Shown here in pieces: positions 9,106 through 18,455 of a stretch of DNA of 22,657 nt. Under the pieces are notes generated by a model. That model saw nothing but the letters and a program-made list of their open reading frames with translations. It made no database searches and was not told the DNA's origin. The stretch covers positions 1-22,657 of the IMG/VR virus record IMGVR_UViG_3300010885_029098. One strand, 5' to 3'. The position numbers and the translations under genes were made by a program. Source of the stretch: a virus. Position 1 is the first letter of the stretch. Each line of letters opens with the position of its first letter.

Positions 9106-9148
9106 GTTACCTCCAGGCGGGTGTATGGTTGCCCCGCCTGCAGGTAAC
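9106..9148 (-). promoter_or_regulatory. 16-bp RNA hairpin masking the ribosome-binding site of the helix-turn-helix gene
   Basis: The 45-base gap between the multidomain protein stop (9148-9150) and the next ATG (9102) is almost wholly an inverted repeat. The arms are 9106-9121 and 9133-9148, with 15 of 16 positions paired (one mismatch) and an 11-base loop. In the minus-strand RNA the right arm contains GGAGG, the Shine-Dalgarno of the downstream gene, so folding would hide it. No U-tract follows, which argues against an intrinsic terminator. It could lower translation of the next gene, act as a protein-binding operator, or protect the upstream mRNA end. Confidence 0.7.
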
Positions 9149-10482
9149 TATATCATACGTAGGAGGTCTTGGAACTCTTTTAGGTCATTAAGTGTCAAGC
9201 CGGACTTCTGCTCTTCTGCTGACTCTTCTGCTGACTCTTCTGCTGCTTCTGCAACTTCTACTGTAACAGTCTCTTCTGCTGGCGTTTCTGCTGGCGCTTC
9301 TGCTGCTGGAGCATCATCAGTAACTGTTTCTTCTGAAACTTCTGCTACTTCTACAACTTCTACAACTTCTGCAACTTCAACTTCTGGAGTTGGTTCTTCG
9401 GTGCCCGCAACAATTCTTGATGACCTGTTGCTAAATCCTGCTGGCGGATCAATTTTTACGCCTGCTTCAACAAGTGCCTTAGCAATTGTCTCTGCAAGAA
9501 TATCTAATGACTTTTTACCGGAATCTACCATTGGTTGATCCTCGCTTGCTGGTGTTGATTCTGGCTGCATATCCTCCGCCATCGGGTCGGGCAATGAATC
9601 CACTGCCATTAATGAATCTGCTTCCGCAGTAATTGTAACATTCGTTGGAACCCACTCTTCGTCAAGCCACATCCATACACGGAGTAGCGCAACTGGAGTT
9701 TCTTCCGTTCCGGTCATAGTGGTTCCCTGTGGGTAGCCAACCAAATCGCCAGACTTAGTAACAGTCAGAACATCGCCATAGAATGTTCCTGCTCCTGTTT
9801 CAAGTGAAACAATTGAGCCTGAGTTAATTTCTTTTGCCATATTGGAAATCAAATTGATAAATGACTTGTGCTCAACTTCTTCAGATGTAAGAGTAATATA
9901 ATTTTCAGTTGGGAATGGCTCTTCTGAAATGTCATCAGTTTTCCATTGACGGACAAGGAATTCTCCCTTTTCCGAAATTTCAATAATTGACCCATAACTT
10001 GCACCGTCATCATCAATCCATGATATTTGTGATCCAACTGCAAATGAGTCTGCTGATTTTGTTTCAATAAATTCAATCATTGAGCGAAGTTCCTTCTGTG
10101 GCATTAGTGCTGGTGGTTCACGATCTGTTTTACGGTAGTGCGATGCTAAGTGGCGATAAACACCTTCACGGTCTGAGTTGCGCAGGATAGTTCCCGCCCT
10201 AGAGCCATTGAGAGTCCCAATACCGGTTGACAAAGCACGAAGATTTGCCTCACCTGGTGTGCCATCAGCAGAAACCATATGATGAATATAACTGTACGAA
10301 CTCTTGCGAGTTGGATCACCATCTGGACTTAGGAATGCATAGATACGGCGGAAATAGTCGCGTGTTGAAGGACTTTTAACACGACGCTCATGCACGGCAT
10401 TATCCCATGCAGATGATGTATCAACTTCTGTATTATGGGAAGGCATTACTGCCTTTTCCTCATCAATCATTTCATCATCCAT
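9148..10482 (-). CDS. acidic multidomain head-module protein sharing modules with the protease fusion
   Basis: A 444-residue protein with an ATG at 10482 and AGAGG upstream. Residues 14-127 closely repeat the C-terminal module of the preceding protein: PSHNTEVD, YSYIHHMVSADGTPGEAN, LNGSRAGTILR and VYRHLASHYRK. Two small beta-barrel units follow (about 147-205 and 220-292); the second, with TEETPVALLRVW, matches the tudor/HVA1-like unit of the protease fusion. Residues 285-425 are acidic low-complexity sequence rich in Glu, Ala, Val and Pro, and the end is a short helix (LTLNDLKEFQDLLRMI). A protein with an acidic linker between protease and capsid is where a scaffold would be expected. Scaffold or capsid-associated function is inference; no enzyme motif is seen. 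Confidence 0.8.
   Translation of the reverse strand: MDDEMIDEEKAVMPSHNTEVDTSSAWDNAVHERRVKSPSTRDYFRRIYAFLSPDGDPTRKSSYSYIHHMVSADGTPGEANLRALSTGIGTLNGSRAGTILRNSDREGVYRHLASHYRKTDREPPALMPQKELRSMIEFIETKSADSFAVGSQISWIDDDGASYGSIIEISEKGEFLVRQWKTDDISEEPFPTENYITLTSEEVEHKSFINLISNMAKEINSGSIVSLETGAGTFYGDVLTVTKSGDLVGYPQGTTMTGTEETPVALLRVWMWLDEEWVPTNVTITAEADSLMAVDSLPDPMAEDMQPESTPASEDQPMVDSGKKSLDILAETIAKALVEAGVKIDPPAGFSNRSSRIVAGTEEPTPEVEVAEVVEVVEVAEVSEETVTDDAPAAEAPAETPAEETVTVEVAEAAEESAEESAEEQKSGLTLNDLKEFQDLLRMI
9211..9246 (-). repeat. 12-nt tandem repeat encoding AEES units
   Basis: Three nearly identical 12-base copies (CTCTTCTGCTGA on the plus strand, last base varying) lie head to tail in the acidic tail of the multidomain head protein and encode AEES/AEEQ units. 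They are the clearest part of a longer low-complexity tract (about 9205-9390) of Glu, Ala and Val codons. The 12-base unit can change copy number without breaking the frame, so tail length may vary between relatives. Confidence 0.75.
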
Positions 10483-12736
10483 TGTGATCCTCTTCTTTTG
10501 TTAGAGGAGCATCAATGATGCCCTTCTTTATCATGATTTCGTCAAGTTCAAAGTCCGACTTCAGTTCTGGTGCTTCTCTGCCATAATCTTTGTAATGACG
10601 CTTAAAGTGATTATACACAGCCTTACGCTCAGCCCCACGAAGCCTTGTTCCGGTGCGAGCACCATTCAGAACCGACATTGAGTTATTTACAGCGCCCCAT
10701 GCAGCAGCACCTGGCGTACCGTCAGCAGAAACAAAGTGATGAACGAACGTATAGTGCGTCTTCATCGTTCCGTTTTTTTCTGGGTAGCGGTAACCAAATA
10801 TTTTCTGATAGTAACTTGGATCTGCTGGTGAGCGCATACGCTTGTATTGAGTTGTGTCAACCCATGTATCAGTATCATTCACTGCAGTTGAGTGAGATGG
10901 CGATGCGCCCTTCAACTCAAGATTGGCATCAAGTGACTTTTCTTCTTCAACAAGTTCTGACTTTCCTTCAGTAATCAGTTTCTCGTTAATTACCCAAAGT
11001 TTGCAAATTGCTTCTGGCTCAATAATGCCACTAACAATTTCACAACCTTGCCCACCTTCATAAAATACGCAATTTGAGCATTTCATACCAGATGCTACAA
11101 ATGGGTTCTCTGAAGCGTAATGAGCGCCGTTAGCGAGTGCTGTCTGGTCAAACTTGCCAAACTCTTCAACTAACTTCTCGTAAAAGTCATACATTGCATA
11201 CTGGCGAGGGTTTACGCCCATCTCTTGCATTTCCGAAAGCCCATCAAGCATTTCCTCTTGAACATTTGATTGCTCAACTGGTTCATTTGGCATCGGAATA
11301 GCACCCTGTGCAACTTTTTTCAGAAAATCCCTAACTCTGGCATATGCCCATTGCTCTGCATTTTCTGACTTAACTTCATTTAGTGTCTCGTCAAAGATTT
11401 CGTATGCGTAGTGATGCGGGACTGTTTTGCTTTCGTCACCAGCATGGGCCTCATTATGCTTATCAACAAGTTCATCAATTACCTGATTTGACTTGCCTTC
11501 AACACGGGCAACTCTTCCACCAGGGCCACGCACTACAGACACATCGTTTTCTTCATCGCGTGATTGCATTGCTCTCACAAGTTTCTGCGACCAAGTTCTG
11601 CCAGCATCTCCACCCCACAACTTCCAAGCAATAATTCCATTTCCTGGATATCCATCTGCTGATGGGTCACTATTCTTTGGAAGGCTCATTTCATTCTCAT
11701 GACGAGCGAAATAAGAAGAGATATGGAATACCTTCTGCCAGTCAGCAGTTTCATTTGAAATTAAATAGTTTGCAGTATTCTTTCCTACTGCAGTACCGCC
11801 CCGTGAGTATTCTTTACTCCACTCAAGACCAGTTTTTGCTTGTGCTTTTACGCCACTTGGAATTGAAAAATTTAGGTCAGAGTAGCGCTCTGGGTTTGCT
11901 TTTTCTTCTTCAATCTCCGATGAGGTTTTGAGATCTTGAATCTTCCTGAGTGTTGATACTTTATGCCCTACAAGCGTTTCCGTCTCTTCCCAGCCATCTG
12001 CACCTTTTTTATAAATGCGGATTAACGCTGCTGGGTTTTCGGGTGTTGCAGTAATGCTGAACTCAGATTCCGGCACTCCAAGAGTTCCATCACGCATTAT
12101 GTACTCAATTTTTCCACGTGCTGTTCCGCCAGGAGAACTCCATGAAACAAAGTCGCCAATTTTTACATCTTTTGGATTTGCTTTTTCTTGTGACTCATCA
12201 CGAACTTCTTTATCTTCAACTTCAATGAGGTCATCTTTTGAAATGGTACGGGTGCTCGGAGCGGCACCAAAAATGACTGGCGAGTATTCGTATAGTTCAA
12301 GTTGACTAATTTTACGGATGCCGGTTGTCTCGTCAACCATTGATTTGCCTTCAGGAACTGAGTAGCCAATTGACCATTCTTGTTCACTGCCAAAGAACTG
12401 AACGTCGCCGTAAGCATCGCGCCCACGACTTGTGTTCAGGTTGAATTGCATCTTCACAAGCAATGCACCTGCATTTTTTGCAAGTAGGTCTGCTGGGAGG
12501 CGTGAGTCGCCAGGGAGGAGTTCTTCAACTTTGAGGGTTTTTCCTACTGGCACGTTTGTGTCGTGTGACCAGACAACCTTCGGATTACGCTTGCGAAGCG
12601 TTGCTTTATAGGCATTTGGGAGAATAATGTCATTTACGTTGTCAACAATGTTGGTGACAGAGACAATGGCCTCAACAATTCCATCTACTGGATCAATGCC
12701 AGTTACCTGTGAAACGGGAATTTGTTTGTGTTCCAA
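10475..12736 (-). CDS. HK97-type prohead protease fused to several extra modules
   Basis: With a TTG start at 12736 (perfect GGAGG five bases upstream) the product has 753 residues; an ATG at 12763 would add nine but lacks a ribosome-binding site. Residues 1-165 are an S78-type prohead protease, with His58 (VVWSHDTNVPVGK) and Ser122 (QEWSIGYS) as catalytic residues. It should mature the capsid. Then follow a small beta-barrel, tudor/HVA1-like (187-266, KIGDFVSWSSPGG), a domain with VFHISSYFARHE and WKLWGGDAGRTW (about 291-391), a helical part, a four-Cys motif (C553, C556, C565, C578), and a C-terminal module (622-726) repeated in the next gene. Lone proteases are about 200 residues long, so this is unusually large. 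The stop overlaps the next start by 8 nt. Confidence 0.85.
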   Translation of the reverse strand: MEHKQIPVSQVTGIDPVDGIVEAIVSVTNIVDNVNDIILPNAYKATLRKRNPKVVWSHDTNVPVGKTLKVEELLPGDSRLPADLLAKNAGALLVKMQFNLNTSRGRDAYGDVQFFGSEQEWSIGYSVPEGKSMVDETTGIRKISQLELYEYSPVIFGAAPSTRTISKDDLIEVEDKEVRDESQEKANPKDVKIGDFVSWSSPGGTARGKIEYIMRDGTLGVPESEFSITATPENPAALIRIYKKGADGWEETETLVGHKVSTLRKIQDLKTSSEIEEEKANPERYSDLNFSIPSGVKAQAKTGLEWSKEYSRGGTAVGKNTANYLISNETADWQKVFHISSYFARHENEMSLPKNSDPSADGYPGNGIIAWKLWGGDAGRTWSQKLVRAMQSRDEENDVSVVRGPGGRVARVEGKSNQVIDELVDKHNEAHAGDESKTVPHHYAYEIFDETLNEVKSENAEQWAYARVRDFLKKVAQGAIPMPNEPVEQSNVQEEMLDGLSEMQEMGVNPRQYAMYDFYEKLVEEFGKFDQTALANGAHYASENPFVASGMKCSNCVFYEGGQGCEIVSGIIEPEAICKLWVINEKLITEGKSELVEEEKSLDANLELKGASPSHSTAVNDTDTWVDTTQYKRMRSPADPSYYQKIFGYRYPEKNGTMKTHYTFVHHFVSADGTPGAAAWGAVNNSMSVLNGARTGTRLRGAERKAVYNHFKRHYKDYGREAPELKSDFELDEIMIKKGIIDAPLTKEEDHNG

Positions 12737-12816
12737 AATGACCTCCGATGCAAAATATACCATACTTTATCACATAGTGTTACAGCGTATCCACTGACTC
12801 TACATTATTGTATAGA

Positions 12817-17858: not shown

Positions 17859-18455
17859 CTAGTGAAATGCTTCGCCTTCTGCCCATGCTATCAAACACCA
17901 TCTTTCGCCTTCTGTTATTGGCGTAACTTCGTTAAGTGTCCATGCTGGCCAGATAGTTGCCATACCAACCTCAGTGGGTATTAAAGCATCTTCAGGACCA
18001 GCATATAAAACAACTTCACCGCCGAGATAGTCTTCAGGAAGTGATAACTGAACAGTCATGGATAGTTTTCTTTTATTCTTGTCTATAGACCAATCTGTGT
18101 GACGTAGGTGATAATCACCATTCACATATCTGATTATGTGTACCGATGGAACGCTTGATATTGATAGTTTCCATAAATTTAATGATTTAAATATATTCTT
18201 AATTATTTCGTATAATCCAGGATAGCGGTCTTCCGACATAAAAAACTGGGTGCATGACCTAATTTCTTTATTTTTATCTGCGCCATCTAGCCAGAATACT
18301 TTTCCTGATTCCGGGTCTTGATTAAGGGCAAAACCAATAAGCGTCTCGCACTCTTGTGGACTAAAGAGTTGAACTATTTCTGCTATGCCATTTAGATCGG
18401 CACTCTTTGCATTTCCATTATCACGCTTGGATTTATTTCCATTTTTGTAAACCAT
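17859..18455 (-). CDS. 2OG-Fe(II) oxygenase-like protein with altered metal site
   Basis: A 198-residue double-stranded beta-helix protein of the prolyl-4-hydroxylase/PKHD type, a family that hydroxylates proteins or nucleic acids with 2-oxoglutarate and O2. Visible motifs: IIRYVNGDYHLRHTDW (105-122), giving the H119-x-D121 metal pair and a conserved Tyr110, then the beta-strand block LGGEVVLYAGP, and the C-terminal block TLNEVTPITEGERW (173-186) with Arg185 for 2-oxoglutarate. In most relatives the residue at 175 is His, the third iron ligand; here the codon is AAC, Asn. The enzyme may be inactive, altered or non-iron. The ATG at 18455 is the only usable start and has only a distant GAGG. 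The target is unknown. Confidence 0.83.
   Translation of the reverse strand: MVYKNGNKSKRDNGNAKSADLNGIAEIVQLFSPQECETLIGFALNQDPESGKVFWLDGADKNKEIRSCTQFFMSEDRYPGLYEIIKNIFKSLNLWKLSISSVPSVHIIRYVNGDYHLRHTDWSIDKNKRKLSMTVQLSLPEDYLGGEVVLYAGPEDALIPTEVGMATIWPAWTLNEVTPITEGERWCLIAWAEGEAFH

Follow-up and report, generated by a model that had tools for sequence, protein, structure and literature searches.

Head maturation proteases are commonly regarded as tools of assembly that disappear once they have acted. The internal proteins of T4 are examples of proteins that are held by the shell. For phage P1, proteins bound inside the shell have been described, a precedent for internal head proteins (PMC12810830), and for SPN3US it has been argued that the C-terminus of the protease targets this enzyme into the prohead (PMC7411985). 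Here, we describe a protein module found at the end of a prohead protease and again at the start of the next protein, both encoded in the virus record IMGVR_UViG_3300010885_029098, whose 22,657 bases are called the window. Its minus-strand gene set comprises the portal gene, whose product ends in a Mu-F-like part scoring below the Pfam cut-off, the gene for a 762-residue protease fusion, that for a 444-residue protein, and the metallophosphoesterase and major capsid protein genes. The fusion resembles the HK97-type prohead protease (PF04586) in its N-terminal domain and in its place between the portal and major capsid genes. However, it differs from the HK97 type by the added module and by Tudor-like and high-potential iron-sulfur protein (HiPIP)-like parts, and with the NCBIfam model proheadase_HK97 (TIGR01543) it scores 41.9 bits, below the cut-off of 59. 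The reading that we favour, with a confidence slightly short of even, is that the module folds on its own, probably binds metal and travels as a passenger on procapsid-entering proteins, mostly the head maturation protease. The sequences themselves establish the homology, the gene states, the kept histidines and the variety of protease partners, from which entry into the procapsid, anchoring by a C-terminal helix, the metal site and the passenger role are inferred.

A preliminary description of this DNA had noticed a module shared between the C-terminus of the fusion and the start of the next protein, and the motifs were found where it had placed them: PSHST at residue 622, HHFVSADG at 675 and VYNHF at 716 in the first copy (M1), and PSHNT at 14, HHMVSADG at 67 and VYRHL at 108 in the second (M2). 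Residues 616-740 of M1 and 8-132 of M2 align without gaps with 49 of 125 residues identical, and their local BLOSUM62 score of 275 lies far over the best of 1000 shuffles (mean 30, standard deviation 5.7, maximum 64), by which a chance likeness was rejected. As the DNA of the two copies is 50% identical, with 43 of 125 third positions shared, the likeness is one at the protein level and old. Of the bounds given earlier, residue numbers 622-726 and 14-127 fit the 762-residue frame, and the upper nucleotide bound of 12736 looks like a transposition of 12763. The AlphaFold2 model of M1, made with 54 relatives, has a mean predicted local distance difference test score (pLDDT) of 94.5 and a predicted template modelling score of 0.88; in the model of the whole second protein the elements of M2 follow in the same order, each starting exactly seven residues later, which matches the numbering offset. 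Thus the same predicted fold was found for both copies, as was the same family by profile hidden Markov model (HMM), rather than the different folds or unrelated families that would have spoken against a shared module.

The module is a widespread domain that is apparently unnamed in the libraries scanned, in agreement with the earlier remark that no name was known for it. Neither the isolated copies nor the 54 members matched any Pfam family under an E-value of 0.028 or any PHROG under 0.02, and a scan of the full-length proteins against NCBIfam gave no match over the module. PHROG 2976 and PHROG 80 represent head maturation proteases, and their match regions extend partly into the module in loci L047 and L130; the module is thus probably present, unmarked, inside annotated protease families, with none of the scanned libraries treating it as a domain of its own. 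No publication on the domain was found among open-licence PubMed Central papers, which does not imply its absence from wider print. A Foldseek comparison with predicted viral proteins returned three at E 0.001 or better, all without usable names, and a weak match to a Halobacterium phage prohead protease (E 0.47). The fold of the module is modelled with confidence, and no neighbour was found among the solved structures compared, which does not by itself make the fold new.

Relatives were collected by two pattern scans of IMG/VR, which confirmed 45 and 392 loci, respectively, 80 of the latter being retained; a further 20 loci came from 84,980 species genomes of bacteria and archaea. The 209 module copies in the resulting 149 loci are not independent, since L052 onward partly repeats contigs of L007-L051. 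The preliminary description had proposed to examine whether relatives carry one fused or two separate copies, and one-gene, split, tandem and three-copy states were all found. The loci of the first scan include 25 close ones, of which 18 share the split state of the window, six have a protease gene with two tandem copies and one has three copies. A further group has a single gene, encoding a protease about 60-65% identical to that of the window with one module and an acidic tail, followed directly by the metallophosphoesterase gene. All 28 complete one-gene proteins contain GFSN in the tail and all 28 contain a C-terminal E-F helix motif; the second protein of the window likewise contains GFSN and an ending of the one-gene kind. 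With a profile of the one-gene tail, the window scores 17.7 and L110 scores 26.3, the maxima of 2000 shuffles each being 11.4 and 10.8, respectively. In a tree of distinct protease sequences, with the one-gene proteases of Gordonia and Brevibacterium phages as outgroup, the two-gene forms constitute a single clade (97/94) next to that of the one-gene forms (98/95); together with the shared tail, this supports one fission. On these grounds, a gene fission did occur, probably once, and the two-gene form of the window would be the derived one. Split and tandem states interleave in the protease tree (a single clade for the split state is not rejected, p 0.15), and the gene break lies just after copy 1 in relatives with one copy in each protein and in those with two copies in the protease alike. 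Hence, of the tandem duplication or fission proposed earlier, the tail and the protease tree favour fission, and a single tandem duplication flanking the break is not supported, given the place of the break and tandem copies that are not sisters.

The origin of the second copy was addressed with a module tree of 106 distinct copies and 126 columns, from which copies shorter than 110 residues were excluded. One group (88/99) united the one-gene copies with the downstream copies of tandem relatives and with the copies at the protease end in split phages. The upstream copies of tandem relatives fell outside this group, as did one set of copies from next genes, and M2 copies of the window type were placed further out, beyond a 100/100 branch. 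Approximately unbiased (AU) tests rejected the tandem copies as mutual sisters (p 5e-9), and gave p 0.06 for a clade of all second copies, p 0.05 for a clade of all next-gene copies and p 0.12, not rejected, for window-type M1 and M2 as one clade. The tree and these tests indicate that the second copy is old or was brought from elsewhere, and its side of the gene border differs among relatives. A recent duplication in the lineage of the window is neither shown nor excluded (DNA identity 50%, AU p 0.12).

The two genes share an 8-nt start/stop overlap at 10475-10482, as had been described, and an 8-nt ATG overlap recurs in 14 of 22 distinct junctions between protease and next gene, with Shine-Dalgarno-like words upstream of the start that vary among relatives. 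Such conserved overlaps fit ordinary translational coupling, and the two genes are probably co-translated; a programmed frameshift joining them was set aside, with no systematic search for slippery sites having been made. Probable co-translation, like folds and five histidines kept in both copies would be in keeping with M1 and M2 binding each other and so tying the protease to the next protein after the gene split. However, in tandem-type relatives the module is absent from 11 of 11 distinct next proteins, one of which is truncated where its locus ends, and one-gene relatives and most other proteases carry a single copy, so that we regard such a bridge as improbable. Of the earlier proposal of a role in capsid assembly or in linking the two proteins, the link is thus disfavoured, and a role in head assembly is possible in view of the head protease partners.

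These partners were counted in 50 distinct module proteins from outside the protease family of the window, with truncated and split-partner open reading frames (ORFs) excluded. Pfam identified Peptidase_S78 in 26, Clp protease in 11, S49 in three, and Mu-I protease and DUF2213 in one each, and further Phage_capsid in three, Phage_cap_E in one and 2'-5' RNA ligase in two, with multiple counting possible. By local profiles, the module precedes S78 in 14 and follows it in 12, follows ClpP in 11, and is found once on each side of S49, and 11 of the 50 have none of these three proteases. In L034 and L039, the module proteins start with a 2'-5' RNA ligase-like domain, with no known protease there. 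Among cultured viruses, three remote bearers including an archaeal tailed virus were found (profile 85-91 bits). Stand-alone module genes encoding 118-119 residues are present on two actinobacterial chromosome contigs (L147:4992-5351 and L154:4989-5345, plus strand) among what by eye are ordinary cellular genes, one copy adjoining an Lsr2-like gene by the same reading; within eight genomes of the order of L154 that were searched, the module is solely in that of L154 itself. A range of partners spanning S78, Clp, S49, Mu-I and DUF2213, together with the varied dosage and place of the module, argues for a passenger. A strong rival is that the module targets the protease to the procapsid or regulates it, by bringing it to the growing head or by keeping it inactive until assembly ends. 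Such a role accords with partners that are nearly all head maturation proteases of several kinds, and with the argument made for SPN3US that the C-terminal region of its protease is a packaging signal (PMC7411985). It is less easily reconciled with the second protein of the window, which bears a module without a protease, with the two copies on one protease in tandem relatives, with the conserved C-terminal helix that is already a candidate anchor in one-gene relatives, and with the occurrence of the module on either side of S78, which means that no fixed geometry to the protease is required. On balance, we consider targeting or regulation somewhat unlikely.

Residue conservation was examined in 30 module copies, each less than 60% identical to the others, and is given in the numbering of the fusion. 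G682 is kept in all 30, W634, H675, H676, H719 and H723 in 29 each, and H624 and K668 in 27 each, the single copy without H675, H676, H719 and H723 being the stand-alone protein of a Moorella phage. In the AlphaFold2 model, H719 and H723 lie one turn apart on a long helix (model residues 95-112) as an HxxxH motif. The histidine pattern suggests a metal or catalytic site, and the module probably folds independently and binds metal. Five near-invariant histidines with an HxxxH helix, and the stand-alone copies on chromosomes, could also be explained by an enzyme, for example a metal nuclease of HNH-like type that accompanies the packaged DNA or acts on it, and faint matches to Tox-HNH-HHH (E 0.044), an HNH PHROG (E 0.073) and the retron Ec83 HNH (E 0.3) point the same way. 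However, every HNH match is at chance level, Tox-HNH-HHH (PF15637) being matched by two of 54 module members with a best E-value that is not significant, and the confident M1 model found no PDB structure at E 0.001 with Foldseek (best 5.5) and none at Z 2 among 74 PDB chains re-aligned with a second aligner. An enzyme is thus considered quite unlikely. When checked for a beta-beta-alpha fold, the model had two short strands followed by helices, with no matching PDB structure.

If the module is a passenger, the ancestral single gene would have encoded a protease, one module, an acidic tail and a C-terminal helix, and a single split just after the module would have left M1 at the end of the protease and placed the old tail and helix on a second protein. 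The older-diverged M2 would have been added, before or after the break depending on the relative. The second protein would then be an internal head protein with variable passenger domains (the module, Tudor-like barrels and, in one relative, a ferritin-like domain), carried on a disordered acidic linker, while the conserved C-terminal helix may bind the shell inside. Its structure model has a long acidic stretch of low confidence at residues 343-427, predicted to be disordered. The terminal segment of these candidate cargo proteins is conserved, with LKEFxxL in 20 of 20 next proteins, and 28 of 28 one-gene proteases end in a related motif. Across 85 family loci with 1946 ORFs, a C-terminal LKEF-type motif was found on 76, namely 59 module proteins and 17 next proteins of tandem relatives, and on none elsewhere. 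The next protein of L031 (4280-5662, plus strand) has the ferritin-like domain (PF00210, E 1.5e-12) inserted in its acidic linker at residues 237-373, and a third module occupies the same linker place in the next protein of L015. The Pfam match of the major capsid protein starts at residue 159, and the N-terminal stretch ahead of it is presumably its own scaffold, as in HK97, so that for the second protein the role of an internal protein is likelier than that of main scaffold. A separate ferritin-like gene was observed in L015 downstream of the capsid gene (11421-11942, plus strand). DPS-type ferritin-like enzymes are known in gut phages, with no claim of a head location in the passage that describes them (PMC8008677).

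Several observations weigh against a passenger in the head. The tail score of the window is only 0.3 once the last 20 residues are removed, and the GFSN tail is clear in just two next proteins, those of the window and L110. Entry into the head rests on the association of the module with head proteases, and a domain fixed beside proteases might equally well serve in targeting or regulation. In the Moorella phage MTATph1, the stand-alone copy lacks H675, H676, H719 and H723, and the 8.3 kb around its gene contain no annotated head gene. The chromosomal stand-alone copies in L147 and L154 also fit poorly with a purely head-based role.

Features of the two genes of the window, with the basis of each assignment
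Feature	Position	Strand	Basis
Protease fusion gene, 762 residues (P0001)	10475..12763	-	ORF and translation; PF04586 Peptidase_S78, E 8.7e-13, above cut-off
Next protein gene, 444 residues (P0002)	9148..10482	-	ORF and translation
8-nt start/stop overlap ATGGATGA between P0001 and P0002 genes	10475..10482	-	Read from sequence
Prohead protease domain, residues 1-190 (Pfam stretch 35-176)	12194..12763	-	Pfam, PHROG 80, identity to cultured phages
Hva1_TUDOR-like domain, fusion residues 203-249	12017..12157	-	PF11160, 21.2 bits, under cut-off of 24.1
Four-cysteine HiPIP-like stretch, tentative	10997..11092	-	PF01355, E 0.064, 14 bits against cut-off of 22
Module copy 1 (M1), fusion residues 616-741	10541..10918	-	Alignment, HMM, model pLDDT 94.5
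Module copy 2 (M2), next-protein residues 8-133	10084..10461	-	Alignment, HMM, M1-like secondary structure
First Tudor/Agenet-like barrel, next-protein residues 152-199	9886..10029	-	Structure model; tandem Agenet PDB structures, best E 2.1e-4
Second Tudor/Agenet-like barrel, next-protein residues 224-294	9601..9813	-	Structure model; PDB comparison
C-terminal helix with LKEFxxL, next-protein residues 431-443	9154..9192	-	Model; motif invariant in 20/20 next proteins

Beside the module, the fusion contains further parts. Its Peptidase_S78 match scores 49.2 bits against a curated cut-off of 21. The cut-off of PF11160, under which the Tudor-like domain of the window falls, is passed by the relatives L015 (25.9 bits) and L016 (26.3 bits). 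A Tudor-like domain is common to both proteins (fusion residues 197-280 and next-protein residues 216-299, 27% identical, E 8e-6), and represents a second shared element that the preliminary description had overlooked, so that the module is not their sole part in common. For the four-cysteine stretch, HiPIP is the sole match in Pfam, and the HiPIP structure 3h31 (E 0.18) the sole one in the PDB, all below cut-offs. The order of the accessory parts is swapped among relatives, with the Tudor-like domain followed by the middle domain in the window type and the reverse in most others. Elsewhere on the minus strand of the window, a 198-residue ORF (17859-18455) has by eye the look of a 2-oxoglutarate/iron dioxygenase, and positions 1-1056 encode a collagen-like protein with Gly-x-Thr repeats that runs off the end of the record and is probably a tail fibre.

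The presence of one domain beside four unrelated kinds of protease, in viruses of bacteria and archaea and at either end of S78, would point to an unnamed step shared by procapsids or to proteases serving as loading vehicles. In its widest form, which we consider rather doubtful, this would mean that an undescribed passenger, rich in histidine and binding metal, is common to the tailed viruses of bacteria and archaea, which enters the capsid on whichever protease is used (S78, ClpP-like, S49 or Mu-I) and acts in the head or in the newly infected cell beside ferritin-, HiPIP- and Tudor-like parts, and of which Actinobacteria took up a stand-alone form. The natural gene states, with one gene, split genes, tandem copies or three copies, constitute a clean set for testing the role of the domain.

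Among described viruses, Gordonia phage GMA6 and Brevibacterium phage Cantare have a protease domain 52-57% identical to that of the window and a long acidic tail, encoded by one gene just before the capsid gene. Unlike the fusion of the window, their proteases have no module. The small C-terminal domain of the GMA6 protease was considered as a relative of the module and rejected, the hhalign comparison being not significant (probability 3.8%); a link of this domain to DUF6582 might have been supposed, but Pfam gives it no name. It is encoded at L155:4668-4871 (plus strand) and has 12 relatives in viral contigs, its own record included. In Methanocaldococcus fervens tailed virus 1 and in Thermus phage Riverbug, which has a Mu-I-type protease, the paired HH and the HxxxH of the module are kept. 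The remote bearers, including Moorella phage MTATph1, have a longer insert before HH than the module of the window, that of Riverbug is without the PSH histidine, and that of MTATph1 stands alone, unlike the fused copies of the window. By functional analogy, the second protein of the window, if it indeed enters the head, would resemble the internal proteins of T4, the ejection proteins of SPN3US and DarA and Hdf of P1, which are held in the shell by a dedicated segment.

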